Origin: an archaeon
Lineage (GTDB): Archaea > Aenigmatarchaeota > Aenigmatarchaeia > GW2011-AR5 > GCA-2688965
NCBI GenBank assembly: GCA_002688965.1
Contig: NZEE01000055.1
Span: 23,777-36,965, forward strand
DNA length: 13,189 nucleotides
Direction of reading: 5' to 3'
Shown piece after piece: positions 300 through 13,189 of this stretch (within the stretch, counting starts at the first letter, position 1; each line of letters opens with the position of its first letter). The notes beneath the pieces are model-generated. The model was not told where the DNA came from, made no database searches, and saw nothing but the letters and a program-made list of their open reading frames with translations. The position numbers and the translations under genes were made by a program.

Positions 300-686
300 T
301 TACTTCAATGGTACGAACTTTGAGGAACGTGTAGCACCAAATCCTGGTGAACTATGTGATACCTTTCCTCTTGTTTGTGAATATTCTCCTAAATAATGTC
401 CCAACATTTCAACAGTTGGAATAAACTTCACAAATTCTTTACCATTATAAATTGCAAATTCTAATTCAATCATTTCTGGAATAATTGGCATATCTCTACA
501 GTGAGTTCTTATTGGTTTTGAACCATCTTTCCATGCACGAACATCTGAAAGAAGTTTCTTTTGTTTATCATTGAAACCTCTTGTAATGCTTCGTCTCTGT
601 CTTGCATTAACTAATTTAACAAACTCTTCCATAGGCATTGCCTTTAATTCTTTCAAAGTTTTACCTTTCCATGTTAATTCAGCCAT
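300..686 (-). CDS. rps19: Ribosomal protein uS19 (S19)
   Basis: Small-subunit head protein that pairs with uS13. From the chosen start MAELTWKGKT it is 128 aa, a normal archaeal length. Family hallmarks are KPIRTHCRDMPIIPEMI (about residues 57-73), the VEMLGHYLGEYSQTRG segment (92-107), and a basic C-terminal tail ending SSKFVPLK. Candidate starts run GTG(695)-ATT-ATG(689)-ATG(686). The GTG overlaps the uL2 stop and is itself part of the GTGATT Shine-Dalgarno sequence. I prefer the second ATG because its spacing (4 nt after GTGAT) matches the neighbouring genes; 689 is the alternative. Fifth gene of the operon, between uL2 and uL22. Confidence 0.93.
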   Translation of the reverse strand: MAELTWKGKTLKELKAMPMEEFVKLVNARQRRSITRGFNDKQKKLLSDVRAWKDGSKPIRTHCRDMPIIPEMIELEFAIYNGKEFVKFIPTVEMLGHYLGEYSQTRGKVSHSSPGFGATRSSKFVPLK

Positions 687-697
687 CATAATCACTT
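680..697 (-). promoter_or_regulatory. Stop/Shine-Dalgarno/start overlap of uL2-uS19
   Basis: The 18-nt string AAGTGATTATGATGGCTG holds the last Lys codon and TGA stop of uL2, a GTGATT ribosome-binding core, two consecutive ATG codons and the first Ala codon of uS19. The identical 18 nt occurs at the uL4-uL23 junction (1741-1758). The arrangement implies translational coupling and makes the second ATG the likelier start. Confidence 0.7.
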
Positions 698-2549: not shown

Positions 2550-3539
2550 TTAATCACCCTGTTGTGACTCCAGTGAAATGTCTTTAATTTCAACTGGCTC
2601 ACTTTTTGAGTTTCGTAAAGCTTTTCTCAAAAATATAACTCTTTTCTTAATTCCTGGCACAGAACCTTCAATCAATACATATTTGTTCTTAACCAAACCA
2701 TATCTAACAAATCCACCATTAGGATTTACTTTTTTTGAATCATCACCAATAGCAACTAATCTCTTATTTAATTCAACTCTATTGAAAAATCCATATTGTC
2801 CTGCAGCTGGTGTTCTCCAATCCATCTTTGCAGGAGTTTCAGAACCAGTACAACCAACGTGCCTATGATGTTGCTCATTTTTACGACCCTGAATCTTAAT
2901 ACCAAATCTCTTTACAGGTCCAGTAAATCCAAATCCCTTTGTTACACCAGCAGCATCAACATAATCACCAGGTTTGAAAACATCTTCTACATTTAGTTCC
3001 TTACCAATCAAACCTTCAGCATATTTTATTGCAGCTTCCTTTTCACCGCAAACATCTAATTCTAATATATCAGCTTTTTTCTTTTTCATACCACTTTCAG
3101 TAGGTTGAGTACATACAATTATACGAACAAAAGCAGTTTCATTCTTTTTTTCATCAGAAATTGCCTTTTTTGAAGGAATAATATTTTTTATTGCCTTAGG
3201 AACAGAAGCTGACCATTTTTCACCCAAAACAGTCATATCGAATTTTTTATCACCAATAGATGTTGCATAAGAATAATAACGCACACCACAAACAAAAAGA
3301 GAAGGAGCATCCAAAACCGTCACAGCTTTAGAAACAAGCTTACCTTTTGTGTATTTTATAGAAGTATCATTATATGTAATTTGTGTCATACCTGCCTTAA
3401 AACAAGCAAAACCATCAATTCTAGGCTCTTTTTCTGCTTTTCTATTTCTAGGATTAGAAACTATATTGTGAACTAACTTATTTGCCCTTTTTCTCGTATA
3501 TCCAGTTGAACCTCTTCGAGGTCGTCTTTGTCTTGGCAT
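2550..3539 (-). CDS. rpl3: Ribosomal protein uL3 (L3), first gene of the cluster
   Basis: Archaeal/eukaryotic uL3, 329 aa, normal length. The N-terminus MPRQRRPRRGSTGYTRKRA is followed by FACFKAGMTQI (about 44-54). The core signature VTKGFGFTGPVKRFGIK (199-215) runs into the HHRHVGCTGS finger (224-233) that reaches toward the peptidyl-transferase centre. The start ATG at 3539 has AAGGTGA 4 nt upstream. As the first gene it should carry the operon promoter in 3540-3700. Its last codons GGT GAT TAA double as the uL4 ribosome-binding site. Confidence 0.96.
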   Translation of the reverse strand: MPRQRRPRRGSTGYTRKRANKLVHNIVSNPRNRKAEKEPRIDGFACFKAGMTQITYNDTSIKYTKGKLVSKAVTVLDAPSLFVCGVRYYSYATSIGDKKFDMTVLGEKWSASVPKAIKNIIPSKKAISDEKKNETAFVRIIVCTQPTESGMKKKKADILELDVCGEKEAAIKYAEGLIGKELNVEDVFKPGDYVDAAGVTKGFGFTGPVKRFGIKIQGRKNEQHHRHVGCTGSETPAKMDWRTPAAGQYGFFNRVELNKRLVAIGDDSKKVNPNGGFVRYGLVKNKYVLIEGSVPGIKKRVIFLRKALRNSKSEPVEIKDISLESQQGD

Positions 3540-3638
3540 AATTTCACCTTATAATCTCATCTATAACTCAAAGTTTACCTATGATTAACTAATTACACGT
3601 AGAAATTTGTGCGTCCGAGTTCATGAGAGTGATAGATA

Positions 3639-3647
3639 ATTGAACAT
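3639..3647 (+). repeat. ATTGAACAT direct repeat, left copy
   Basis: Nine bases identical to 7293-7301, in the same orientation, at the left edge of the atypical block. This could be a target-site or attachment duplication. In AT-rich intergenic DNA a 9-bp match between two regions of about 200 bp is not rare by chance, so this is only a candidate boundary mark. Confidence 0.25.
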
Positions 3648-3651
3648 AATG

Positions 3652-3659
3652 CATTTAAA
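3652..3659 (-). promoter_or_regulatory. Candidate archaeal TATA box for the ribosomal operon
   Basis: Minus-strand TTTAAATG fits the archaeal TATA consensus and would place transcription start near 3630, giving uL3 a leader of about 90 nt that includes its Shine-Dalgarno site. The 3540-3700 interval holds no gene. It is the last clearly AT-rich DNA before the GC-richer block, so this box sits right at the composition boundary. Other TATA-like strings (around 3560 and 3670) are alternatives. Confidence 0.35.
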
Positions 3660-3701
3660 GGTACAATTCGATATATATCTACCTATAAGTTGACAGTAAT
3701 A

Positions 3702-3729
3702 AAGAGAACCGCTGGTTTGCGGTTCTCTT
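3702..3729 (-). terminator. Intrinsic terminator of the leftward bacterial-type genes
   Basis: A perfect 11-bp inverted repeat (AAGAGAACCGC and its complement) around a 6-nt loop, followed on the minus strand by TTTATT. It lies 12 bp past the likely original stop (3742) of the NfeD-like gene. This is a textbook Rho-independent terminator of bacterial type and closes the left end of the atypical block. Confidence 0.85.
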
Positions 3730-3741
3730 GAAAGGAAGATG

Positions 3742-3804
3742 TTACTCTTCAGGTGTGTCATCTGCAACATCTGCCGCCGGCTCTTCAGCTGCCGGAGCAT
3801 CCGG
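3742..3804 (-). other. Displaced C-terminal tail of the NfeD-like gene (different frame)
   Basis: Minus-strand codons 3804 to 3745 encode 20 residues beginning PDAPAAEEP and ending DDTPEE, then TAA at 3742-3744. The acidic Ala/Pro composition, GC-rich codons and position directly before the terminator suggest the genuine end of the upstream gene. A TGA in this same frame at 3820-3822 shows the frame change lies between about 3785 and 3820. Confidence 0.6.
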
Positions 3805-4231
3805 AGCCAGAAAGTATAGTCATGGTAACAGAACCTTCCTTGCCAAGCAACGACCGTCTTGAATAAGATGATGTTGCCTGCTGCTTATAGAGAAACCCCA
3901 ACAGTTGGCTGACAAGAAATCCAAGAACACCGCCTGATGCCAACGCAATCAGCAACGACTGAGTAGGAGATGCATCATAACATTTTGCAATAGCACCTCC
4001 TGCACCAAATGCCGTGCCGAAAGCACAAATGACTTTGAGACTGAACCAGTGGCCAAAACCACCCCCACCATCCACTTCAGCGTCGCCATCGATATCAGCG
4101 TCAACATCAAGGTCCATATCGAAATCAGCATCAATCTCGACATCGGCATCAGCATCACCTCCAAGCACAAGTGTCAGAAGCATGATGCCTCCAAAGAACA
4201 CCGCAAAACAAATGTACACGATTAACGACAT
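3785..4231 (-). CDS. NfeD/YqiJ-like membrane protein, OB-fold lost by an out-of-frame junction
   Basis: As read, 148 aa. Membrane segment 1 is at about 3-23. An alternating Asp tract follows at 25-54 (GGDADADVEIDADFD and onward), then segments at about 63-83 and 91-114, then a linker and LLGKEGSVTMTI (128-139), which is how the C-terminal OB-fold of NfeD/YqiJ-like proteins begins. The expected fold of about 60 residues is absent: the frame ends after nine unrelated residues (LSGSGCSGS). In another frame just downstream, an acidic Pro/Ala tail (PDAPAAEEP...) runs to a TAA at 3742, immediately before the terminator. That looks like the true C-terminus separated by an out-of-frame deletion or a sequence error. 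The start at 4231 has AGGAGG 6 nt upstream. NfeD-like proteins act in membrane-domain organisation; the role here is inferred only. Confidence 0.7.
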   Translation of the reverse strand: MSLIVYICFAVFFGGIMLLTLVLGGDADADVEIDADFDMDLDVDADIDGDAEVDGGGGFGHWFSLKVICAFGTAFGAGGAIAKCYDASPTQSLLIALASGGVLGFLVSQLLGFLYKQQATSSYSRRSLLGKEGSVTMTILSGSGCSGS

Positions 4232-4264
4232 GGCAACCTCCTTTCCAGTTTCCATGGAAAAATG

Positions 4265-4420
4265 TTACACCCTCATTCCACATTCCTCGTTGTGACACTT
4301 TCTGTCAGAAAACGAAACCTCTTTGCCTACGATAACGCAGTGAAATTTTCCCTCCTTGGGCTTGCGCTCTTCATCCAGGTTCGTGATCTTCTTGCGACTC
4401 GGGCAACTCTTCCTTGCCAT
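4265..4420 (-). CDS. 51-aa Cys/His-containing small protein
   Basis: Short gene reading MARKSCPSRKKITNLDEE, then KPKEGKFHCVIVGKEVSF, then SDRKCHNEECGMRV, stop TAA. Its ATG (4420) is preceded by GAGGAGGG with 5 nt spacing, one of the strongest ribosome-binding sites in the window. It lies 33 nt upstream of the NfeD-like gene on the same strand, with no terminator between, so the two are probably co-transcribed. Cys6, His27/Cys28, Cys42/His43 and Cys47 could coordinate a metal (a small zinc-ribbon-like arrangement), but no family is recognised. The N-terminus is strongly basic. Function unknown. Confidence 0.7.
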   Translation of the reverse strand: MARKSCPSRKKITNLDEERKPKEGKFHCVIVGKEVSFSDRKCHNEECGMRV

Positions 4421-4444
4421 CGTTCCCTCCTCTTGTAGAAACAA

Positions 4445-4465
4445 GGGAATCCACTGAGGGTTCCC
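4445..4465 (-). terminator. Hairpin downstream of purC
   Basis: GGGAAcCC/GGaTTCCC stem (8 positions, one C-A mismatch, 5-nt loop) starting 11 bp past the purC stop, followed on the minus strand by TTGTTTCT. It is probably a weak intrinsic terminator or attenuator between purC and the 51-aa gene. Confidence 0.55.
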
Positions 4466-4476
4466 ATTACTGTCAG

Positions 4477-5385
4477 TTACGCAAACGGAAACTTCTGGCC
4501 AGTCAGCTTCTCGTACGCATCAGCATACCTCGCACGAGTCTGCCCAACGACATCATCAGGCAACTCAGGTCCTGGTGGAGTCTTGTCCCACTCCCCATCA
4601 TCACAGCGTGCCTGCAACCAATCGCGAAGAGGTTGCTTGTCAAACGAAGGCTGAACAAGCCCAGGCTTATAGACATCGGCTGGCCAGAACCGACTCGAGT
4701 CAGGTGTCAGAACTTCATCGATGAGCATGAGTTCACCGCTGGCATCAAATCCAAACTCAAACTTGGTGTCAGCAATGATTATGCCACGCTCAAGAGCATA
4801 ATCAGCAGCTTCCTGATAGAGCTGAATGGAAATGTCCCTCAACATCCCAGCATGACCCGGGCCAATCAGATCAACAACACCTGCAAAGTCCATGGCCTCA
4901 TCATGCCCTGACTCAGCCTTTGTGGTCGGTGTGAAAATCGGCACCGGCAACTGTTCACATTCCCGGAGCCCAGCAGGAAGTCCAATACCACAAACCGTGC
5001 GGTCCTCCGTGTAGCTTTTCCAGCCACTGCCAGTGATATAGCCACGAACCACACACTCAACCGGAATGACCTCAGTTGCCTTGCAACAAAGCATTGTCCT
5101 TCCATGGAATTCCTCGCCATGGAATTCCGGCGGCATATCTCTCCGTGCAGTAGAAATCATATGGTTTTGAACAACTGCACCCAGTTGGTTAAACCAGAAA
5201 TCACTGAGCAAATTCAACACCTGCCCCTTGTTCGGAATGCCGTTTTGCATCACCACATCATACGCACTAATGCGGTCAGTGGTAACCACCACCAAATACC
5301 CGTCCCCGAGATCAAATACCTCACGAACCTTGCCGGTCTTCTGAGGAAGATTGACATCCAGCACACCCATCACTACCTTTGCCAT
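4477..5385 (-). CDS. purC: Phosphoribosylaminoimidazole-succinocarboxamide synthase (PurC)
   Basis: SAICAR synthetase (EC 6.3.2.6), which condenses CAIR with aspartate using ATP in de novo purine synthesis. It is 302 aa from the ATG at 5385, the long (about 300-residue, Ade1-like) form rather than the short form of about 240. Motifs seen: KTGKVREVFDLGDG (16-29), VTTDRISAYDV (34-44), VVRGYITGSGWK (112-123), FTPTTKAE (151-158), IADTKFEFG (204-212) and DEVLTPDSSRFW (223-234). A TTG two codons earlier could also initiate, but the ATG is better placed after GGAAAGGG. It is the only purine gene here; its neighbours are unknown membrane and small proteins. Codons are GC-rich, unlike the flanking archaeal genes, so the gene is bacterial in style. 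Confidence 0.95.
   Translation of the reverse strand: MAKVVMGVLDVNLPQKTGKVREVFDLGDGYLVVVTTDRISAYDVVMQNGIPNKGQVLNLLSDFWFNQLGAVVQNHMISTARRDMPPEFHGEEFHGRTMLCCKATEVIPVECVVRGYITGSGWKSYTEDRTVCGIGLPAGLRECEQLPVPIFTPTTKAESGHDEAMDFAGVVDLIGPGHAGMLRDISIQLYQEAADYALERGIIIADTKFEFGFDASGELMLIDEVLTPDSSRFWPADVYKPGLVQPSFDKQPLRDWLQARCDDGEWDKTPPGPELPDDVVGQTRARYADAYEKLTGQKFPFA
5102..5128. repeat. Tandem CCATGGAATTCC duplication inside purC
   Basis: The 12-mer CCATGGAATTCC occurs at 5102-5113 and again at 5117-5128 (15-nt period) and encodes EFHGEEFHG on the minus strand (about residues 88-95). The frame is kept. It may be a small in-frame duplication in a surface loop. Confidence 0.6.
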
Positions 5386-5401
5386 TTCCAAATCCCTTTC
5401 C

Positions 5402-5415
5402 GCGTCTAAAGACGC
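5402..5415 (-). promoter_or_regulatory. Small hairpin abutting the purC ribosome-binding site
   Basis: GCGTC-TTTA-GACGC on the minus strand (5-bp stem, 4-nt loop) ends directly before GGAAAGGG of purC. A second short stem, CCCAA-TTG-TTGGG, lies at 5433-5445. Neither has a T-tract. They may affect message stability or initiation, or be incidental. I see no clear promoter in this 66-bp gap, so purC may be read through from upstream. Confidence 0.35.
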
Positions 5416-5451
5416 ATTCAGTAATGTTCCAACCCAACAATTGGGAAGAAA

Positions 5452-6003
5452 TCAAGCTTCTCGGATGAGAACGTGCACATTGTCGTCATATCGTGAGACG
5501 ATGTGCAAAATACCATATGCGATTACAGCTGGCAGCCAAAAAACAGCAACAACCACCAACTGGAATTTGTGTTGGTTGCCACGAGAACTTGCGTACATCT
5601 CCACAAAAAAAACAAAGAACACGAACCCGATGAGCAGATAGATTGATGGAAAAACTATCTGGGCCCAGAGTTCCCCAGGAAAAGCGCCGAATACGAAAAT
5701 GACAAATGCAAGCAATCCTGCGTAAATCGGCAGGTCCATATACCACGGCGATTTCTTCTCCAATTTCACACCTCCGTTATTCTTAGAAGCTTGTTGTTTT
5801 CCCCATTGAACTAACAGTTCGTGTACCTCAGCTTTTTCCAGCTGAGTAGGTTCTGGCTGGTTTCCCTTGAGCCTAACCCATAACAGGGTTACACCAACAG
5901 TGGCAGCAATCATCCACTTGAAACCAATGAGAAGCCCAAGACCAACCCACATAGATAGACCAATGAGAACAACACCCCAAAACAACCAGTACATCTTGTT
6001 CAT
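5452..6003 (-). CDS. 183-aa multi-pass membrane protein of unknown function
   Basis: No family recognised. Hydrophobic segments lie at about 5-27, 28-45, 91-109, 115-136 and 147-169. Between the second and third is a soluble, charged, probably cytosolic loop of about 45 residues (46-90). The first two segments are rich in Trp and Gly. The ATG at 6003 overlaps the stop of the upstream 56-aa gene (ATGA), with GAGGAGGG 8 nt before it inside that gene's last codons. This implies translational coupling and a shared membrane role. The C-terminus (RYDDNVHVLIREA) is polar. Codon use matches purC and the rest of the block, not the archaeal flanks. Confidence 0.8.
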   Translation of the reverse strand: MNKMYWLFWGVVLIGLSMWVGLGLLIGFKWMIAATVGVTLLWVRLKGNQPEPTQLEKAEVHELLVQWGKQQASKNNGGVKLEKKSPWYMDLPIYAGLLAFVIFVFGAFPGELWAQIVFPSIYLLIGFVFFVFFVEMYASSRGNQHKFQLVVVAVFWLPAVIAYGILHIVSRYDDNVHVLIREA

Positions 6004-6170
6004 TTATCGTCCCTCCTCTTTGAGTCAAACAAGCAACGAAGTATGCTCTCAAGCCAACCACCATCCTGATCAACAACAGCGTCCAGCAGGAAAAGAATAA
6101 GAGCAAAACCACCAAATACCACAATCGGGAACAACTTTTCCCAGATAGTCATAGTTTCCCACACAGTCAT
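6000..6170 (-). CDS. 56-aa single-pass membrane protein, coupled to the 183-aa gene
   Basis: Reads MTVWETMTIWEKLFPIVV, continues through a hydrophobic stretch (about 14-29), and then a polar tail ending SKRRDDK. The ATG at 6170 has GGAGGG 6 nt upstream. Its stop TGA overlaps the ATG of the next gene (ATGA), and its last codons contain that gene's ribosome-binding site (AGG AGG GAC), so the pair is almost certainly one translational unit. The topology suggests a short N-terminus, one helix, and a tail of about 27 residues with mixed charge. No known family recognised. It could be an accessory subunit of the 183-aa protein. Confidence 0.75.
   Translation of the reverse strand: MTVWETMTIWEKLFPIVVFGGFALILFLLDAVVDQDGGWLESILRCLFDSKRRDDK
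6135..6170 (-). repeat. Two imperfect 18-nt tandem units at the start of the 56-aa gene
   Basis: ATGACTGTGTGGGAAACT is followed directly by ATGACTATCTGGGAAAAG (14 of 18 identical), encoding MTVWET-MTIWEK. Both units begin with ATG, so the start codon itself was duplicated. Ribosome-binding-site spacing favours the first. Confidence 0.6.
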
Positions 6171-6205
6171 GGCTTTCCCTCCTTATAGTTTGACAAATCT
6201 AAACA

Positions 6206-6231
6206 CGCGGAACAGCTGAAACCATTCCGCG
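6206..6231 (-). terminator. Hairpin after the 316-aa gene
   Basis: CGCGGAA and TTCCGCG arms (7 bp, 12-nt loop), about 20 bp past the stop of the 316-aa gene, followed on the minus strand by TGTTTAG. This is a probable intrinsic terminator with a short, imperfect T-tract. It separates the 316-aa gene from the two membrane-protein genes. Confidence 0.6.
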
Positions 6232-6252
6232 CGCATTGTTCAGAGTGATTTC

Positions 6253-7203
6253 TCACTCGTGGCCAGAACCATCGTCATCAGCGCTCTCTCCAGGAACGCT
6301 TTCATCCACCTTTGGAATCGGATCCATTGAACTCAACATAGCGATGACATGCTCCACGTTTGCGTTCTTGTCACCCATGGATGCAAAGAGCGCAGCAACA
6401 TCTTGAAGCCGAATCTGAATCTCCGGGTCATTGTCAAACATCGGGTCGCCTTCTTTGACGCCCAGTTCATTCAACAATGACTTGAGTTCAGTCTGATTTT
6501 TCTCAAGACGTTGCTCATTTGCTGCATCATGTTCAGATCCAACTGACACAGCATACGAGAAGACAGAACGAGAAATGGAAATAGTTAAGGCCATAAGAGG
6601 ATCACGGCCTTCAGCTTCTGGTTTTCCAAACTCATTTAGCAACCATTGGTTGAACTCTTCTGGAGAAACGTCCAAGATACTTTTAAGTTTCTTGATTCTC
6701 ACAAGAAAAGTTTCTTTGGCTGGACCATCTTCCATTGCCGAATAATCATCACAAATCAGACTGTAATGATCACGAGCCATTGCATAGATGATCGAACTCA
6801 AACGAATGAAAATACAATCAGGGTGGTTGAGTATTTCAGGCTCACCTGAAACCTCCTCACCCGCAAAAATCTTCAGCATGTAAGCATTCATCTCTGCGTC
6901 ATCCACTCGTGCTTTTTCGATGAGTGAAATTTCATGCTTGAGCTTCCGAACTCGAGAAATCTTCTTGATCCTGGGTGTGACAACAATGAGTTTTCCACCC
7001 TCACACCTACCACAAGGACACCTCACAATTCGCGTAACACCCTTGCCACTGTCGTCGTCTTCAGGATTTGCATCCTGAGAAAAGGAATTGCCAAGGATGG
7101 CTGACAACAAAGGGTTCTTCTCACCGAATTCAACCAAACCATCCAAGGAACCCAGACCAGGCAAATCAAGACCAGCAAACATCTTACGAAGAGCCTCATG
7201 CAT
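6253..7203 (-). CDS. 316-aa protein of unknown function with a CxCxxC motif
   Basis: Not recognised. From the ATG at 7203 (GGAGGG 7 nt upstream): an N-terminal Gly/Leu-rich segment (1-40), an acidic linker (44-53), RCPCGRC (Cys62, 64, 67; a possible metal-binding knuckle), a basic stretch of about 25 residues (PRIKKISRVRKLKHE), and then a mostly helical, charged body. The C-terminus is acidic (ESADDDGSGHE). There is no signal peptide or membrane segment, so it is probably cytosolic. The frame is open upstream to 7341, but that extension lacks a ribosome-binding site and is AT-rich, so I reject it. First gene of the leftward atypical block, with its own hairpin downstream. Partial resemblance to a single Cys-rich zinc knuckle is all that can be said. 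Confidence 0.75.
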   Translation of the reverse strand: MHEALRKMFAGLDLPGLGSLDGLVEFGEKNPLLSAILGNSFSQDANPEDDDSGKGVTRIVRCPCGRCEGGKLIVVTPRIKKISRVRKLKHEISLIEKARVDDAEMNAYMLKIFAGEEVSGEPEILNHPDCIFIRLSSIIYAMARDHYSLICDDYSAMEDGPAKETFLVRIKKLKSILDVSPEEFNQWLLNEFGKPEAEGRDPLMALTISISRSVFSYAVSVGSEHDAANEQRLEKNQTELKSLLNELGVKEGDPMFDNDPEIQIRLQDVAALFASMGDKNANVEHVIAMLSSMDPIPKVDESVPGESADDDGSGHE

Positions 7204-7292
7204 TACAACACCCTCCAAAAAGAGAACTAAAGAAACAACCCAGTAAATTACGCTTTCAAGCGCAAAAGACACGTTTTTACGAGAATAACTGT

Positions 7293-7301
7293 ATTGAACA
7301 T
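7293..7301 (+). repeat. ATTGAACAT direct repeat, right copy
   Basis: Matches 3639-3647 in the same orientation; the two copies bracket the atypical block at about 3.65 kb spacing. It overlaps the foot of the inverted repeat 7299-7336. A chance match is quite possible. Confidence 0.25.
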
Positions 7302-7379
7302 TACTACATCTAAGTACAAGAAAAGTACCTGTAATGCCCATTAGAGCATGATTTCACACAAATTTTTTCAAATTCATGC

Positions 7380-7402
7380 AAATATGTCAAAATGACATAT
7401 TT
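7380..7402. repeat. Perfect 10-bp palindrome with a 3-bp spacer (operator-like)
   Basis: AAATATGTCA-AAA-TGACATATTT. The two-fold symmetry and short spacer resemble a dimeric repressor site, about 180 bp upstream of the 316-aa start. Its core TATGTCAAAATGAC recurs as TACGTCAAAATGGC at 7494-7507 (12 of 14 identical), exactly 111 bp away. Confidence 0.5.
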
Positions 7403-7485
7403 TACGATTCGGTATAATGTGTTAGAAATTAACTCAATTTTGAAGATTTTAAAGGGTTTTAAATTCGAATCGACAACCCCAAAAA

Positions 7486-7510
7486 TAGCCAAAATACGTC
7501 AAAATGGCTA
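7486..7510 (-). terminator. Inverted repeat and T-run after tRNA-Ala
   Basis: TAGCCA and TGGCTA arms with a 13-nt loop, starting 6 nt past the 3' end of tRNA-Ala, followed on the minus strand by TTTTT (7485-7481). The T-rich loop and tail fit archaeal termination. The same DNA carries the second copy of the GTCAAAATG motif, so it could alternatively be a protein-binding site. Confidence 0.4.
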
Positions 7511-7515
7511 GGTAT

Positions 7516-7586
7516 GGACTCTGAGGGATTCGAACCCCCAGCCTCTTGCATGCCATGCAAGCGATCTACCGTTGATCTAAGAGCCC
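7516..7586 (-). tRNA. tRNA-Ala, anticodon GGC
   Basis: The 71-nt cloverleaf closes fully. Acceptor GGGCTCT/AGAGTCC contains the G3-U70 wobble that is the alanine identity element. D stem GATC/GATC encloses loop AACGGTA. Anticodon stem CTTGC/GCAAG encloses loop ATGGCAT (anticodon GGC). The variable loop is AGGCT. T stem GGGGG/CCCTC encloses loop TTCGAAT. CCA is not encoded. No intron. Its 3' end faces the atypical block. Confidence 0.95.
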
Positions 7587-7611
7587 TTTTTATTAAAGCG
7601 CCACAATTAAA

Positions 7612-7620
7612 CATATAAAA
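7612..7620. promoter_or_regulatory. TATA box apparently shared by the divergent tRNA genes
   Basis: CATATAAAA (minus strand TTTTATATG) is centred at 7616: 30 nt from the tRNA-Ala 5' end (7586) and 31 nt from the tRNA-Ile 5' end (7647). Archaeal TATA boxes sit about 26 nt before transcription start, so either direction gives a 4-5 nt leader. It is the only well-placed box for both genes in the 60-bp gap. A TTTATAATA at about 7627-7635 would be a second option for the minus strand. Confidence 0.6.
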
Positions 7621-7646
7621 GTGATATTATAAACATTAGAAATCAA

Positions 7647-7720
7647 GCTCGGGTAGCTTAGTCTGGTTAGAGCGCCACGCTGATAACGTGGAGGTCGTGA
7701 GTTCAAATCTCATCTCGAGC
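7647..7720 (+). tRNA. tRNA-Ile, anticodon GAT
   Basis: 74-nt cloverleaf: acceptor GCTCGGG/CTCGAGC (one G-U), D stem GCTT/GAGC, anticodon stem CCACG/CGTGG with loop CTGATAA (anticodon GAT), variable AGGTC, T stem GTGAG/CTCAT with loop TTCAAAT. CCA is not encoded and there is no intron. It ends one base from the stop codon of the convergent cmk gene (7722). Confidence 0.96.
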
Positions 7721-7721
7721 A

Positions 7722-8270
7722 TTATTCTTTATATCCGCCTTCTAGATTACGCAGGATTATATCCACGATTTCATCAGGAGTCTTATCAGAAGTATCTATA
7801 ACATTATCCGCATTTTTCTCCTGAGCAAAGAAATCAAAACCATAAACATCCTTGAATACCTTACGTTCTATTCTCTCTTTTTCCTCTAAGTTCTTAGCAG
7901 ACTGACTAGAATTAGTCTTATCTCTTTTAGAATATCTTTGAGCACGAACTTCTGGCAAAGCTTTAAGCCAAACACGTAAATCTGCTTTATCACCAACCAT
8001 TCGTATTGCTATTTTACCCTCAATAACTATATCGCCTTTATCAGCAAGAGAAATAACAAGATTATCAATTCCATGATGAAAATCAGAAGAACTTCCTTTT
8101 TTAGTTTTCATAAGCTTCAACGCTCTTTCAGTCTCTTTTTTAGCTGTTTTTTCATGGTCTTTGAAATGTTTACCAACTGAAAAGAACTTTAGTTTCAATT
8201 TTTTAGCAAGTAATCTACCAACAGTACTATTACCAGAACCAGGCATTCCAGAAATGACAATTACACTCAT
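7722..8270 (-). CDS. cmk: Archaeal-type cytidylate (CMP) kinase
   Basis: P-loop nucleoside monophosphate kinase that phosphorylates CMP/dCMP with ATP in pyrimidine salvage. It is 182 aa, the size of the short archaeal CMP kinases. It shows the P-loop GMPGSGNST (8-16), the central DLVISLADKGDIVIEGKIA-like block (here DNLVISLADKG, 69-79, and IVIEGKIAIRM, 81-91), ADLRVWLKALPEVRAQRYSKRD (96-117), and a lid/C-terminal segment with DNVIDTSDKTPDEIV. Odd point: the Walker A lysine is Asn14 (codon AAT). From memory, archaeal CMP kinases often have Thr rather than Lys there, so this need not mean inactivity. Adenylate-kinase-like relatives are the alternative. The start ATG 8270 has no Shine-Dalgarno site but a TATA box about 25 nt upstream, which fits leaderless transcription. 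Confidence 0.85.
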   Translation of the reverse strand: MSVIVISGMPGSGNSTVGRLLAKKLKLKFFSVGKHFKDHEKTAKKETERALKLMKTKKGSSSDFHHGIDNLVISLADKGDIVIEGKIAIRMVGDKADLRVWLKALPEVRAQRYSKRDKTNSSQSAKNLEEKERIERKVFKDVYGFDFFAQEKNADNVIDTSDKTPDEIVDIILRNLEGGYKE

Positions 8271-8307: not shown

Positions 8308-10947
8308 TCATGCAGTGACATATTTTATATAAAACATGATTTTTGCTCTGAAAAGAAGGAATACTACTGCAATAACAGCAATTATAATGAAAAGCAATAT
8401 TAATCCCATTCCATCGTCTCCTGGTTCAACAGGATCAACAGGGTCATCTGGATCAACAGGATCAGAAGTACAATCTCCCGCATCAAAATTACATGCAACA
8501 TTATTACAAACAGAATCACAAGTTCCATCATCTAGATAACTGTTTGGACAACCAGGAGCACATAAGGTTGTATCAGTATCATCGTCGTCATCGTCGTCAT
8601 CATCATCTGTATCATTAACAGTATCATCTGGGTCATCATCAGTGTCATCTGGAGGAACGCTCTGAACAGTTGGAAGAGTAAATGTATGTGGGTCGCCAAT
8701 ATCATCAAGAGATACATTAGCATACTGATCAACAGAATATGTTATAGTAATAGTCTGGTTTGGTTGTATTTTATCATACAAGAACATAAATTCTGGGTCA
8801 TTTAACACTATTCGCTTAATTCCAGTTGAACCTGTAGTTACTTTATTGCTATGAGTTGCATATTCTTTAGGAAGTGCATCAAATACAAAAAAGTTCGTAT
8901 AATCACTTGTTCCTTTATTTCTAAGCGATAAAGTTATTTTAGAAACACCTGCTGATGTAATATCAAGAACTCTAGTATATTCTATTTTATTTTGCATACT
9001 AGTTGAACTTGAAATAGCATCAGTTATTGAAGAATTGGAAAGCGTAATATGAAGCATTGTACTCATATGAGTTCTCAAAGCATTAACTTTTTGAGTAACT
9101 GAAGTTGAATTATGAGAAAGGTTATTCATTTCTTTTTGATTAATCGGTTGTCTACATGGAAGCCAATTAAGAGGCATATCAGAACGACAAACTACAACAT
9201 CATTATCAGTAACCTCATCGTTAACAAACACATCAACATCCAGAGAAATATTAAAATTAGTAGGTGTTGTTCCTGAATCACTTACATTAAATGCTACAGT
9301 AAATGGAGATGAAACAAATGTACCTGCCATTCTTGAAAAAGGAGCATCAGGATCTGTAAGATTTCCTGATATTTTTGCAAAACTACGTTCACCACCACTC
9401 CACACAGCAGTAGCTTCAACACCATAAGTATTATTAAACAAATATTCACAAGTAGCTTCAATATTAGCAAGACACACGCCAGTACCTAAAACATTAAGAT
9501 ATTTGTACATGACTTTGTTAAAACCATCATTATTATCAAGCCATGTTAAGTGGAATCCATCTACAGTAGAATCAATAGCAATATCACCATTTGCTTCTGC
9601 ACCAGTAATTGACCCAGATTTAATTTCAGTAGTAGATTCATCTATTAGTTTATATGACAATTTACCAGTAGAAGCCCATCTCCATGCAATCATAGTAAGA
9701 TTATCTACAACCGCTACAGTTGCATCAGAACCTTGTGTATCTAATTCCACTTCATTGCCTTTGTATGAATAAAATACTCCACTTGAATTGCTCCAAGTAA
9801 TTAAAATACTCTCATTCAACATTGCAAATGATTGACGACTAAATTCCCTTCTATGATTGAATTCAGTAATAGTAGCTAAATCTGAAGTATCTGCAATACG
9901 TACATTAGACCAATTAAAGACATTACCAAATTCTGAAGTAATTATAGCATTGATATGAGTACCATCAAAATATATTCCAGATAAATTAAACACGGAAATT
10001 GAACTATATTCAAGAACCCCACTATATTGTTCACCATCATCTGTTAACTTTGTATAATATAGTCCATTTTTACCATCTTTTTTCTCAATCCAGAAAATAT
10101 AACCAGCATTACCAACAGTTTCAACAATAACATCAGTAACATTTGAAGAAAAATCTACGTAATTATGTTGTTCATCACCAAAGCTTTCTGAAGTACAATC
10201 AAGCCAAGCTGAATTAGCTGGTTCAGTATTACAAATAGAAGAAGTATCTTGAGGACCAACATATAGATGAGAAGCTAAAGACACAAAAGATTCTTCACCT
10301 GGAATAGATAAAACATATGAATGGACAAGTGGATTATCAGTACTATCTAAGCCAAACAATCCCCAAGTATCATCAGTCTTATTTCCAATAAAATCAAGTC
10401 TATCTCCACCCAACTGTTCAGTATTTGTATCAATAGTGTATGTATCATCACCATTATCAGTACATGTAGCACTCAAATTAATATAACAATAGATTGAAGC
10501 ATCATCAGATATCAATACATCACTCGTAATTGAATTTTTTGATGCCAATGACGCAAAATGAGTTCTATAGTTTCCATCACCATTTGCTTGTTCGAAAATA
10601 ATATCACTACCAGAAAAATAAGGGTTTCTCATATCCCCAAGATCCACAGTATCTCCATCTTTTACACCCTGAACATATTGTGCGCTTTGCATACTCCCAT
10701 CATTAATATTCCAAACTAAAACACCATTAGTACCAATACCAGAAACAGCTAAATTAGTAGGTTTATTATTGGCAGTAGTTACTTCTATTGTATCAGACCA
10801 ATCAAAATAATAACCATTCTCATATGTAGCCATTCCTGTAATCAAATTTTCTTCAGTTACAAATCCTGTAGGAGTAGTTGGGAATAGAGTAAAAAAGCTA
10901 TAAACTATTACTAACATCACTAAAACTACTAAAAATCCCTTTGCCAT
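8308..10947 (-). CDS. Large membrane-anchored surface protein with a Notch-type (LNR) module
   Basis: 879 aa from the ATG at 10947. N-terminal membrane anchor (MAKGFLVVLVMLVIVYSFF, about 3-19). A long extracytoplasmic region follows, rich in beta-type sequence, with numerous N-x-S/T sequons (NLSG, NWSN, NSSG, NLTM, NVSD, NLSH and others), pointing to a glycosylated surface protein. Near the C-terminus come a DUF11-like adhesion segment (about residues 665-765), an Asp/Thr-rich stalk with ten consecutive Asp (767-795), a six-Cys LNR module (796-826: CAPGC...DDGTCDSVC...CNFDAGDC), a Pro/Asp/Val linker, and a C-terminal membrane helix (about 848-868) with a basic cytoplasmic end. A TTG at 10992 could extend it by 15 residues; I chose 10947 because a TATA box lies 26 nt upstream. 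The function (adhesion or cell contact) is inferred. Confidence 0.85.
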   Translation of the reverse strand: MAKGFLVVLVMLVIVYSFFTLFPTTPTGFVTEENLITGMATYENGYYFDWSDTIEVTTANNKPTNLAVSGIGTNGVLVWNINDGSMQSAQYVQGVKDGDTVDLGDMRNPYFSGSDIIFEQANGDGNYRTHFASLASKNSITSDVLISDDASIYCYINLSATCTDNGDDTYTIDTNTEQLGGDRLDFIGNKTDDTWGLFGLDSTDNPLVHSYVLSIPGEESFVSLASHLYVGPQDTSSICNTEPANSAWLDCTSESFGDEQHNYVDFSSNVTDVIVETVGNAGYIFWIEKKDGKNGLYYTKLTDDGEQYSGVLEYSSISVFNLSGIYFDGTHINAIITSEFGNVFNWSNVRIADTSDLATITEFNHRREFSRQSFAMLNESILITWSNSSGVFYSYKGNEVELDTQGSDATVAVVDNLTMIAWRWASTGKLSYKLIDESTTEIKSGSITGAEANGDIAIDSTVDGFHLTWLDNNDGFNKVMYKYLNVLGTGVCLANIEATCEYLFNNTYGVEATAVWSGGERSFAKISGNLTDPDAPFSRMAGTFVSSPFTVAFNVSDSGTTPTNFNISLDVDVFVNDEVTDNDVVVCRSDMPLNWLPCRQPINQKEMNNLSHNSTSVTQKVNALRTHMSTMLHITLSNSSITDAISSSTSMQNKIEYTRVLDITSAGVSKITLSLRNKGTSDYTNFFVFDALPKEYATHSNKVTTGSTGIKRIVLNDPEFMFLYDKIQPNQTITITYSVDQYANVSLDDIGDPHTFTLPTVQSVPPDDTDDDPDDTVNDTDDDDDDDDDDTDTTLCAPGCPNSYLDDGTCDSVCNNVACNFDAGDCTSDPVDPDDPVDPVEPGDDGMGLILLFIIIAVIAVVFLLFRAKIMFYIKYVTA
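8578..8607. repeat. Trinucleotide tract encoding ten Asp
   Basis: Near-perfect ATC/GTC triplets in the surface-protein gene encode a run of ten Asp (residues 781-790). Such tracts change length easily by slippage while keeping frame, so stalk length may vary between strains. Confidence 0.7.
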
Positions 10948-10968
10948 GTTACTATTAAAAAACAAGGG

Positions 10969-10977
10969 ATATATATT
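10969..10977 (-). promoter_or_regulatory. TATA box of the surface-protein gene (leaderless)
   Basis: Minus-strand AATATATAT centred at 10973, exactly 26 nt from the ATG at 10947. There is no Shine-Dalgarno-like sequence before that ATG, so a leaderless message starting at the ATG is likely. The box lies inside the longer reading frame that would begin at TTG 10992, which argues against that longer start. Confidence 0.65.
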
Positions 10978-11048
10978 GTTGTTTACAGACAATAATAACT
11001 TAGTAAATGTGTAATTACTATAGATATTACTGAATTAGGATGATAATC

Positions 11049-13189
11049 ATGGAAACTAAAGACAAATTACCAAAAAGATGGGAAAAAGAGATGGAAATTC
11101 CTTTGTATGAAGTATGGCAAGAAAAACAACTATTCCAATTCAATCGAGACAATGTTATGTCTGGAAAAAAAGAGCTATTTAGTATTGATACTCCTCCGCC
11201 ATATCTAAACCGACCTGTACATGTTGGACAAACTACTACATACGTACTAATGGACTTTTTCGCTCGTTTCAATCGTATGATAGGAAAAGAAGTATTATTT
11301 CCATTAGGATTAGATAGAAATGGATTACCAATTGAAATGTCAGTTGAAAAAGATTATAACATTCAAATGTGCGATGTAACAAGAAAAGAATTCATAAGAA
11401 TGTGCAAAGAAATGTTAGAAAAGTTCAGTATGGAATCAGTTTCATCTTTCTTGCGTTCAGGTATTTCATTTAACTCATGGGATGTTGGAAAAAATATAGG
11501 AGATGTATATCAAACAGACTCACCAGAATACAGAGCCTTAACACAAGCAACTTTCATTGATATGTGGAATAAGGGACTTATACATGAAGATGAAAGAATC
11601 AATAATTTTTGCCCTGGGTGTGGAACAACTATCGCAGATGCAGAAATAGAGTACGCAGAATTGCCAACAATGTTCAATGATATTATTTTCAAAGTTAAAG
11701 AAACTGGGGAAGACTTGATTATAACAACAACCAGACCAGAATTAGTATGCACATGTGGAATGGTTATCTACAATCCTGAAGATGATAGATATCAACATTT
11801 GAAAGGGAAAACAGCTATATCACCAATATTTAATAAAGAAATTCCTATCAAACCACATCCAATGGCTGATATTGAAAAAGGTACTGGATTAGTAATGATG
11901 TGTTCTGCAGGTGATACTCATGATATACAATTCTTTAGAGAAGAAAAACTAAAACCAGTAATAGCAATTGATATTGATGGAAAAATGAACAAACACGCTG
12001 GCTTCTTAGAAGGATTACTAGTTAAAGATGCCAGACAAAAAATAATTGATACATTAAAAGAAAAAGAATTACTTGTAAAACAAGTTCCAACTAATCATAA
12101 AACTCCAGTTTGTGAAAGAAGTAAAGATCCAATAGAATTCATATCAATGAAAGAATATTATGTTAAACAAATGGACTACAAACCTAAAATGAATAAAATT
12201 GCAAAAGAACTAAATATATTTGATCCTAAATCAAAACAAATTTTATTAGACTGGATTAAAGCAGTTAACATTGATTGGCCAATTTCTCGTCGTCGTGTTT
12301 ACGCAACTGAAATTCCATTATGGTATTGTAAAAAATGTAATGAACCAATTTTAGGAGAAAAAGGTAAATATGTTCAACCTTGGGATGAGCCACCACCAAT
12401 TGAAAAATGTCCTAAGTGCAGTAGCACAGAATTTAAAGGAGAAACAAGAGTATTAGATACTTGGTTTGATTCTTCAATATCTCCGTTGTATATTCTTGGA
12501 TATGAAAAAGATGATGAATTCTTCCAAAAAGCTGCACCATGTACTGTAAGACCACAAGGAAAAGAAATTGTACGAACATGGTTATACTATACTTTACTAA
12601 AATGTCATATGTTAACAGACAAAACAATATTCAAAGATGTTTGGATTAATTATCATATTGTCGATAACAAAGGAAAGAAAATGTCTAAGAGTAAAGGAAA
12701 TGTTATTGATCCTAAAGAAATACTTGATAAATTCGGTGCAGAACCTTTTAGATTATGGGCTGCAATAGAAGGAAATCTTACAAAAACTGATTTTAGATGC
12801 TCATTTGATAGAATAGAAGGAGCTACAAAAACTTTAACAAAACTATGGAATGTGGCAAGATTCATTGAAATGTTTCCAGAAAATGAAAAATCAATAAACT
12901 TTGACACTAAAGAATTACAAGAACTTGATAAATGGATTATTCATGAAATAAACACTTTAGCAAAAGATGCTAAAAGAAGATATGAAAAATACGATTTCCA
13001 TAATCCAGCAATAAAAATGAAACACTTCCTATGGGAAACTTTTGCATCACATTATATTGAATTAGTAAAAAATAGAGCTTATAATTCATCTGAATTATTT
13101 AATGAACAAGAACAAAATAGTGCTATCTACACTCTAAATTATTGTTTAGATATTATGCTAAAAGTTCTATCTCCAATAATTCCTTTCAT
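11049..13189 (+). CDS. valS: Valyl-tRNA synthetase (archaeal type), truncated at the window edge
   Basis: Class I aminoacyl-tRNA synthetase (EC 6.1.1.9) charging tRNA-Val with valine. 713 codons are open to the window end; the family is usually about 850 residues, so roughly the anticodon-binding C-terminus is missing. In order: SIDTPPPYLNRPVHVGQ (45-61; the HIGH box reads HVGQ), PLGLDRNGLPIE (85-96; usually GWDxHGLPxE), zinc-type CPGC (188-191), CP1 editing domain with TTTRPEL and GTGLVMMCSAGD, a CKKC...CPKC knuckle, the LDTWFDSS segment, and an intact KMSKS loop (544-548). Departures from His in the HIGH box are known in archaeal ValRS. The start at 11049 has GGATGAT just upstream; it is divergent from the surface-protein gene across about 100 bp. 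Confidence 0.93.
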   Translation, partial: METKDKLPKRWEKEMEIPLYEVWQEKQLFQFNRDNVMSGKKELFSIDTPPPYLNRPVHVGQTTTYVLMDFFARFNRMIGKEVLFPLGLDRNGLPIEMSVEKDYNIQMCDVTRKEFIRMCKEMLEKFSMESVSSFLRSGISFNSWDVGKNIGDVYQTDSPEYRALTQATFIDMWNKGLIHEDERINNFCPGCGTTIADAEIEYAELPTMFNDIIFKVKETGEDLIITTTRPELVCTCGMVIYNPEDDRYQHLKGKTAISPIFNKEIPIKPHPMADIEKGTGLVMMCSAGDTHDIQFFREEKLKPVIAIDIDGKMNKHAGFLEGLLVKDARQKIIDTLKEKELLVKQVPTNHKTPVCERSKDPIEFISMKEYYVKQMDYKPKMNKIAKELNIFDPKSKQILLDWIKAVNIDWPISRRRVYATEIPLWYCKKCNEPILGEKGKYVQPWDEPPPIEKCPKCSSTEFKGETRVLDTWFDSSISPLYILGYEKDDEFFQKAAPCTVRPQGKEIVRTWLYYTLLKCHMLTDKTIFKDVWINYHIVDNKGKKMSKSKGNVIDPKEILDKFGAEPFRLWAAIEGNLTKTDFRCSFDRIEGATKTLTKLWNVARFIEMFPENEKSINFDTKELQELDKWIIHEINTLAKDAKRRYEKYDFHNPAIKMKHFLWETFASHYIELVKNRAYNSSELFNEQEQNSAIYTLNYCLDIMLKVLSPIIPF

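Follow-up and report, generated by a model that had tools for sequence, protein, structure and literature searches.

How did a GC-rich block of bacterial-type genes come to lie between the ribosomal protein operon and the tRNA genes of an archaeal contig? The window analysed here, 13,189 nucleotides in all, had been read in an earlier note as containing either a recent inter-domain transfer or an assembly chimera. The analysis supports a bacterial origin for purC and the NfeD-type gene, and it leaves the choice between these two readings standing. Our judgment inclines slightly toward a real, recent insertion, in which a DPANN archaeon acquired bacterial chromosomal DNA. The features of the window are collected in Table 1.

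Table 1. Genes, RNAs, hairpins, and junction zones of the window.
Feature	Position	Strand	Remarks
uS19 frame	300-695	-	left flank ribosomal protein gene
L2	692-1414	-	left flank ribosomal protein gene
L23	1424-1756	-	left flank ribosomal protein gene
L4	1753-2547	-	left flank ribosomal protein gene
L3	2550-3539	-	left flank ribosomal protein gene
Left junction zone, AT-rich	3540-3709	.	from breakpoint interval and sequence; join ~3660-3775 by composition
Terminator-like hairpin, left block edge	3702-3729	-	-19.0 kcal/mol, z -4.5, 60-base fold
Out-of-frame tail	3742-3804	-	~20 codons with stop; acidic, Ala/Pro-rich
NfeD/YuaF-type membrane protein, broken	3785-4255	-	likely start 4231, 148 aa
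orf51, small Cys-containing protein	4265-4420	-	open frame with GAGGAGGG site; matches no family
purC, SAICAR synthase	4477-5391	-	302 aa from likely start 5385; NF010568, PF01259
tm183, hydrophobic	5452-6003	-	no Pfam, NCBIfam, or PHROG match
tm56, small hydrophobic	6000-6170	-	open frame with AAGGAGGG site; matches no family; overlaps tm183 start
Terminator-like hairpin after orf316	6203-6234	-	14-pair stem; z -3.7, 60-base fold
orf316, orphan with CPCGRCEGG motif	6253-7203	-	no family
Right junction zone, AT-rich	7204-7514	.	join ~7155-7310 by composition
tRNA-Ala(GGC)	7515-7586	-	3' end toward block
tRNA-Ile(GAT)	7647-7721	+	tRNA and Rfam scans
Cytidylate kinase (cmk), archaeal-type	7722-8270	-	TIGR02173, 109.1 bits, above cut-off 102.1
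Valyl-tRNA synthetase, archaeal-type	11040-13187	+	NF009687, 800 bits, above cut-off 738; extends past window end

A two-breakpoint GC model fitted to the whole window placed the block at 3710-7220, a length of ~3.5 kb, with 3-log-unit support intervals of 3660-3775 on the left and 7155-7310 on the right. The GC contents of the left flank, block, and right flank are 33.6, 47.4, and 32.3%. The log-likelihood gain was 117.7 for the window; none of 50 shuffles, in which 100-base pieces were permuted and scanned on a coarser grid than the window, gave more than 21.4. In another scan, in which the block length was capped, the window scored 116.8. The 32 loci fetched from archaeal relatives, each of at least 9 kb, had a median of 10.6 and reached 56.2 at most, and the step in the window is about twice the strongest in that set. 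The six block frames have a GC3 of 0.42-0.62, compared to 0.11-0.21 for the eight flank genes. These data show that the composition of the block is foreign to both flanks, and they bear out the sharp change described earlier, for which a recount returned the same 35/60 and 16/60 G/C in the two lines compared. Tetranucleotide profiles normalised for base content did not separate the block from its flanks; thus, the contrast lies mainly in GC, codons, and start sites. We did not detect host-ward codon drift in the block. The missing drift fits equally DNA that was never inside the archaeon.

The flanks are archaeal in type. L3 scored 316 and 297 bits with two archaeal models versus 51 bits with the bacterial model, both archaeal scores falling short of their cut-offs (341 and 308.7), and its closest counterpart among the matches listed from 371 genomes searched was 46% identical. 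The identity of the valyl-tRNA synthetase to Nanoarchaeota genomes reaches 68%. The 18 L3 loci fetched from Nanoarchaeota keep the S19-L2-L23-L4-L3 order, apart from one in which L23 went undetected. L2, L4, and L3 carry GGTGATT or GGTGAA start sites, the former as had been proposed for the flanks. Two further Rfam matches lay far below their gathering scores and were taken as chance. The nearest relatives found for the flanks are Nanoarchaeota, and archaeal-type genes on both sides together with nearly equal GC indicate that the flanks fit one genome.

The block holds the six leftward open frames previously described, one of which, the NfeD-type gene, is broken. Pfam, NCBIfam, and PHROGs were searched with all six and matched purC alone, the only block gene with a firm function. 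It passes the cut-off of the PRK13961-type model (NF010568) with 406.7 versus 251 bits. Its identity is 53-62% to 119 listed relatives, of which the four that carry organism names are all bacterial, and just 35-42% to the purC genes of Nanoarchaeota (eight of eight fetched). PRK13961-type purC gave some match in 34 of 148 Nanoarchaeota genomes and exceeded the cut-off in 15. A tree was built from the window purC, the other 119 listed of 8000 scored, and eight of the 34 matching archaeal genomes, a sample skewed toward the query. In this tree, the branch of the window purC is long (0.51), and its position relative to its closest neighbours has no support (0.038). The sequence comparisons support a bacterial origin of purC.

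The NfeD-type frame has no Pfam match, and it aligns with four relatives of 173-188 aa, one of which is named as NfeD family and carries PF01957. The C-terminal half present in these relatives is missing, and with it the soluble OB-fold domain that follows the N-terminal membrane segments. As judged by alignment, the gene is an incomplete member, a remnant of the family. Its sole named relative is a Sumerlaeia bacterium, which supports a bacterial origin for this gene as well. The out-of-frame tail may be the C terminus of a lost downstream gene; our guess, made by analogy with the NfeD-SPFH operons described in the available portion of PMC2636767, is that this gene encoded a flotillin. The purC and truncated NfeD clusters have five contigs listed each, and if these listings are taken at face value, an isolated assembly error probably does not explain the truncation. 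The orf316 cluster has one contig listed.

The remaining four frames match no family. The tm183 product is a probable membrane protein, judged by eye. A search of 5.8 billion proteins covered three of the six block frames (purC, NfeD-type, and orf316) and returned no relative of orf316 except itself. We did not find orf316 in any of 148 Nanoarchaeota genomes in a search run without a positive control, nor a solved-structure relative up to E 1. A single-sequence structure prediction for orf316 (mean pLDDT 41.3) was too unreliable to serve as a search query.

The named relatives of the two judgeable genes, purC and NfeD-type, come from Phycisphaerae, Planctomycetota, Acidobacteria, and Sumerlaeia, and none is closer than 62%. 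Best matches to the same archaeal clade, which would have marked the genes as not foreign, were absent for both; the agreement on one bacterial lineage that had been looked for was not seen either. On these alignments, a close donor was not found, and the lineages of the named relatives are discordant.

The expression signals gave a mixed result. GGAGG-type ribosome-binding sites, ascribed earlier to all six genes, precede orf51, tm183, tm56, orf316, and the likely internal NfeD start, whereas the site of purC is the weaker GGAAAGGG. The 16S tail that reads GGTGATT can also pair with GGAGG sites such as those of the block. Intrinsic terminators for all six genes were not borne out: folding of seven block ends gave two strong hairpins (z -4.5 and -3.7) and one moderate hairpin (z -2.3), and the T tails of the block hairpins are weak. 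Over the whole window, neither terminator-like sites (6 versus 7.0 in shuffles) nor sigma-70-like sites (46 versus 45.5) were in excess.

Both joins are intergenic. L3 is intact, as are its likely promoter and the two tRNAs; the promoter probably lies within the left junction zone, where a TTTAAA-type box near 3654 was judged by eye. The left block edge closes with a hairpin, and the right-most block gene is headed by a ribosome-binding site. The two edges (3500-3860 and 7150-7660) have no exact word of more than 9 bases in common, and the only repeats found within 3450-7800 are imperfect inverted pairs and short sequences present in two copies. Intergenic edges and whole archaeal neighbours mildly favour a real, recent inter-domain insertion, since random misjoins would be expected to cut genes often.

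Such an insertion would have brought ~3.5 kb of bacterial DNA to rest in the intergenic space that separates tRNA-Ala from the L3 ribosomal operon. No mobility gene was detected among the six block frames with Pfam, NCBIfam, and PHROGs, and no duplicated target site was seen. An entry route that would fit these data, which showed neither an integrase nor a transposon end or att repeat, is uptake with subsequent end-joining between unrelated sequences. Residence would have been too short for the base composition to drift to that of the host, and the operon of the NfeD-type gene would have been partly deleted within the archaeon. The intact purC frame could yield SAICAR synthase in the new host, and the GGAGG sites of the block could pair with the host 16S tail. 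That the block records a very early bacterium-to-DPANN insertion, with composition undiluted, the NfeD-type operon decaying, purC intact, and a donor without sequenced close relatives, is a proposition we regard as nearly balanced, tipping slightly against.

The strongest competitor is an assembly chimera, in which the assembler or a gap-filling step built a fragment of an unsampled bacterium from the same sample into the archaeal contig, with a false join at each end. We take it seriously but consider it somewhat improbable. Undetectable amelioration and the missing mobility gene and target duplication are what a chimera would leave, the broken NfeD-type gene could mark a third misjoin, and the single contig listed for the orf316 cluster points the same way. 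L3 was beside cmk or tRNA-Ala in none of the 16 valyl-tRNA synthetase and 18 L3 neighbourhoods fetched from Nanoarchaeota, and these loci furnish no uninterrupted L3-tRNA-Ala arrangement as a synteny control. Neither cmk nor tRNA-Ala occurs upstream in any of the 18 L3 neighbourhoods, three of which span just 2.2-3.3 kb on that side, and a tRNA scan of 14 of 30 short L3 loci found one tRNA-Ser. However, a chimera requires two joins, both of them intergenic, in a sequence with no N bases, and the five contigs listed for each of the truncated NfeD and purC clusters argue against it. That the two edges have no exact word of more than 9 bases in common also speaks against a chimera, although what a misjoin requires is a word in common with the partner genome.

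It is very unlikely that the block is cargo or a leftover piece of a virus or mobile element that integrated beside tRNA-Ala. The 3' end of a tRNA is a common integration site, the block lies just downstream of that of tRNA-Ala, and it carries an orphan and small hydrophobic genes. In contrast, the window has no other exact copy of tRNA-Ala of 9 or more bases, the edges lack a common word as described, and no integrase family was detected among the six block frames, purC being the sole match. Four block proteins have no confirmed relatives in viral contigs, and the block DNA met one plasmid and four phage records in short partial matches covering 3-5%. A virus origin was rejected, with no confirmed viral-contig relative and a PHROG match for purC alone, as was a plasmid origin, with no plasmid match for orf316 or tm183 and one plasmid record met by the block DNA. 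A native archaeal island of unusual composition would suit the PRK13961-type purC of some Nanoarchaeota and the inseparable normalised tetranucleotides, but it deserves hardly any credence given the low identity of all eight fetched archaeal purC genes, GC3 unlike that of all eight flank genes, GGAGG sites unlike the flank sites, and the failure to find orf316 in Nanoarchaeota in the search without a positive control.

Usually, the bacterial genes found in DPANN archaea are old arrivals whose composition has already adapted. An unameliorated block with clean edges, if real, would make the size, breakpoints, and early gene loss of a transfer directly visible, a snapshot of DPANN archaea gaining bacterial chromosome pieces without a visible mobile element. 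If the block is a chimera, it is a warning that a bacterial purC can be credited to an archaeon on a safe-looking contig with ribosomal proteins.

The locus resembles inter-species chimeric metagenome contigs in its abrupt compositional and taxonomic change without host-like codon drift, but it differs from them in having two joins, both intergenic. The NfeD-SPFH (flotillin) operons, as presented in the available portion of PMC2636767, share the YuaF/NfeD-like N-terminal membrane half found here; unlike them, the block lacks the OB-fold half and an SPFH gene and has the out-of-frame tail and hairpin in their place. Bacterial-type genes in DPANN archaea are already known. For families of this kind in Woesearchaeota and Pacearchaeota, the available portion of PMC8204110 sets inter-domain transfer and misbinning against each other as explanations, and what the locus shares with them is a DPANN-like genome containing metabolic and membrane genes of bacterial type. 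The cases in that portion are mostly handled as protein families, whereas the DNA described here is a single contiguous stretch of several genes, one of them broken, whose bacterial composition is undiluted.

The base composition of the window was fitted with a two-breakpoint model that delimits a GC-richer, bacterial-looking block between archaeal-type flanks. The GC contents of the left flank, block, and right flank are 33.6, 47.4, and 32.3%. The log-likelihood gain was 117.7 compared to at most 21.4 in shuffled controls (50 random reorderings in 100-base pieces, for which the scan used a coarser grid). When the block length was capped in a comparable scan, the window scored 116.8 versus a maximum of 56.2 and a median of 10.6 in 32 fetched archaeal loci, each 9 kb or longer. 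GC3 is 0.42–0.62 in the block versus 0.11–0.21 outside. The GC step, breakpoint gain, and GC3 gap support the sharp change reported in the earlier note. Base-content-normalized tetranucleotide profiles count against a sharp contrast; they do not separate the block from its flanks (correlations 0.56–0.67 throughout). By codon-position rules, GC1, GC2, and GC3 of the block resemble those of a genome at equilibrium with roughly 47% GC and thus give no sign of drift to the host composition.

Features of the window and their coordinates
Feature	Position	Description
uS19, L2, L23, L4, L3	300–3539	left flank; archaeal-type ribosomal protein genes
Block	3710–7220	support intervals of the limits 3660–3775 and 7155–7310
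Hairpin	3702–3729	strong, z −4.5
NfeD-type	3785–4255	block frame; 3742–4255 with the out-of-frame tail
orf51	4265–4420	block frame
purC	4477–5391	block frame
tm183	5452–6003	block frame
tm56	6000–6170	block frame
Hairpin	6203–6234	strong, z −3.7
orf316	6253–7203	block frame
Word pair	7380–7506	right junction zone
tRNA-Ala		right flank
tRNA-Ile		right flank
cmk		right flank; archaeal-type cytidylate kinase
LNR-domain protein	8308–10992	right flank; 894 residues
ValRS	11040–13187	right flank; archaeal-type valyl-tRNA synthetase

L3 scores 316 and 297 bits with archaeal profiles versus 51 with the bacterial one. Despite this strong preference, it falls under the archaeal cut-offs (341 and 308.7), as would be expected of a divergent lineage. 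Six leftward frames lie between the flanks, as claimed. The GGAGG-type sites ascribed to all six are present upstream of five (NfeD counted from its likely internal start), and purC has a weaker site. GGTGATT or GGTGAA sites precede L2, L4, and L3; cmk, the LNR-domain protein, and ValRS have no such site ahead of their listed starts. Intrinsic terminators after all six block genes was too strong a claim because the seven block ends folded gave strong hairpins at two and a moderate one (z −2.3) at a third. None of five flank gene ends folded below z −1. Judged by eye, the LNR-domain protein is a probable surface protein with hydrophobic N- and C-terminal segments and an Asp-rich stretch; its Notch/LNR domain near the C terminus (PF00066, E 1.7e-7) is, to our knowledge, unusual in an archaeon. 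The right junction zone contains near-identical 15-base words, AAATATGTCAAAATG and AAATACGTCAAAATG, spaced by 112 bases; the first belongs to a palindrome.

The purC product belongs to PRK13961 (406.7 bits, cut-off 251), and its relatives are 53–62% identical (best 119 of 8000 scored, self left out). The four organism-named relatives are from Phycisphaerae (two), Acidobacteria, and Planctomycetota. The family has any match in 34 of 148 Nanoarchaeota genomes and a match above cut-off in 15; the eight best Nanoarchaeota purC fetched are 35–42% identical to the window gene. Four relatives of the NfeD-type gene were found, self left out (39–49% identity); one, from a Sumerlaeia bacterium, is named NfeD. 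The named relatives do not converge on a single bacterial donor lineage, the agreement the earlier note had proposed to look for. The C-terminal half of the NfeD relatives is absent, and the frame ends in a stop. Downstream, some 20 codons in a different frame encode an acidic tail that is perhaps the end of a lost gene. The operon of an NfeD gene often also includes an SPFH (flotillin-type) gene (PMC2636767), so flotillin is our guess for the lost gene. A search of 5.8 billion proteins returned no relative of orf316 except itself. It has no match in Pfam, NCBIfam, or PHROG, nor do tm183, tm56, and orf51, and no usable structure model of orf316 was obtained.

The closest L2 loci found in named genomes are three from Woesearchaeota (44–47% identity). 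L3 was detected in 365 of 371 Nanoarchaeota genomes, with a top identity of 46% among the matches listed. ValRS reaches 68% identity in Nanoarchaeota but is patchy: at E ≤ 1e-200, it is matched in 84 of 371 genomes. Within one order, 17 of 103 genomes have a ValRS 60–68% identical (one copy split in two), one additional genome has a 60% fragment, and for most others the best match listed is at 33–41%. This patchiness, with high identity confined to some genomes, suggests that a ValRS variant has been passed around within DPANN. Judged by the L2 and L3 identities and the patchy ValRS, the host is a deep DPANN lineage that falls within or close to Nanoarchaeota and has no close relative in the Nanoarchaeota sample searched.

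A real insertion of the block has a marginally better than even chance of being correct. In its favor, both joins are intergenic, the neighboring genes are whole, N bases are absent, and the purC and shortened-NfeD clusters are each listed with 5 contigs. Contig counts were given little weight because some clusters have more members than contigs. An assembly chimera is a less probable but serious alternative, favored by a composition without drift, the absence of a mobility feature, named relatives that point to no one donor, and, again with little weight, an orf316 cluster listed with 1 contig. Other readings are jointly improbable. The block edges share no exact word longer than 9 bases, and tRNA-Ala has no exact copy of at least 9 bases elsewhere in the window. 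None of the six block frames matched an integrase or viral gene family except purC, which matched its own PHROG, and viral and plasmid searches with the block were empty or gave trivial matches. If the insertion is real, bacterial DNA would have been taken up and then joined at unrelated sequence within an intergenic gap, the best account given the lack of an edge repeat, tRNA copy, integrase, or viral family.

Eighteen fetched Nanoarchaeota L3 loci were compared with the window. None has the uninterrupted L3-to-tRNA-Ala arrangement: neither cmk nor tRNA-Ala lies upstream of L3 in any of them (three stretches cover only 2.2–3.3 kb upstream). Ribosomal gene order is conserved in all 18, with L23 undetected in one. 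In four (loci L073, L084, L087, and L088), tRNA-Ile(GAT) lies ~3.6–6.3 kb upstream of L3 and on the L3 strand, unlike in the window. A tRNA-Ile upstream of L3 is perhaps an old neighborhood.
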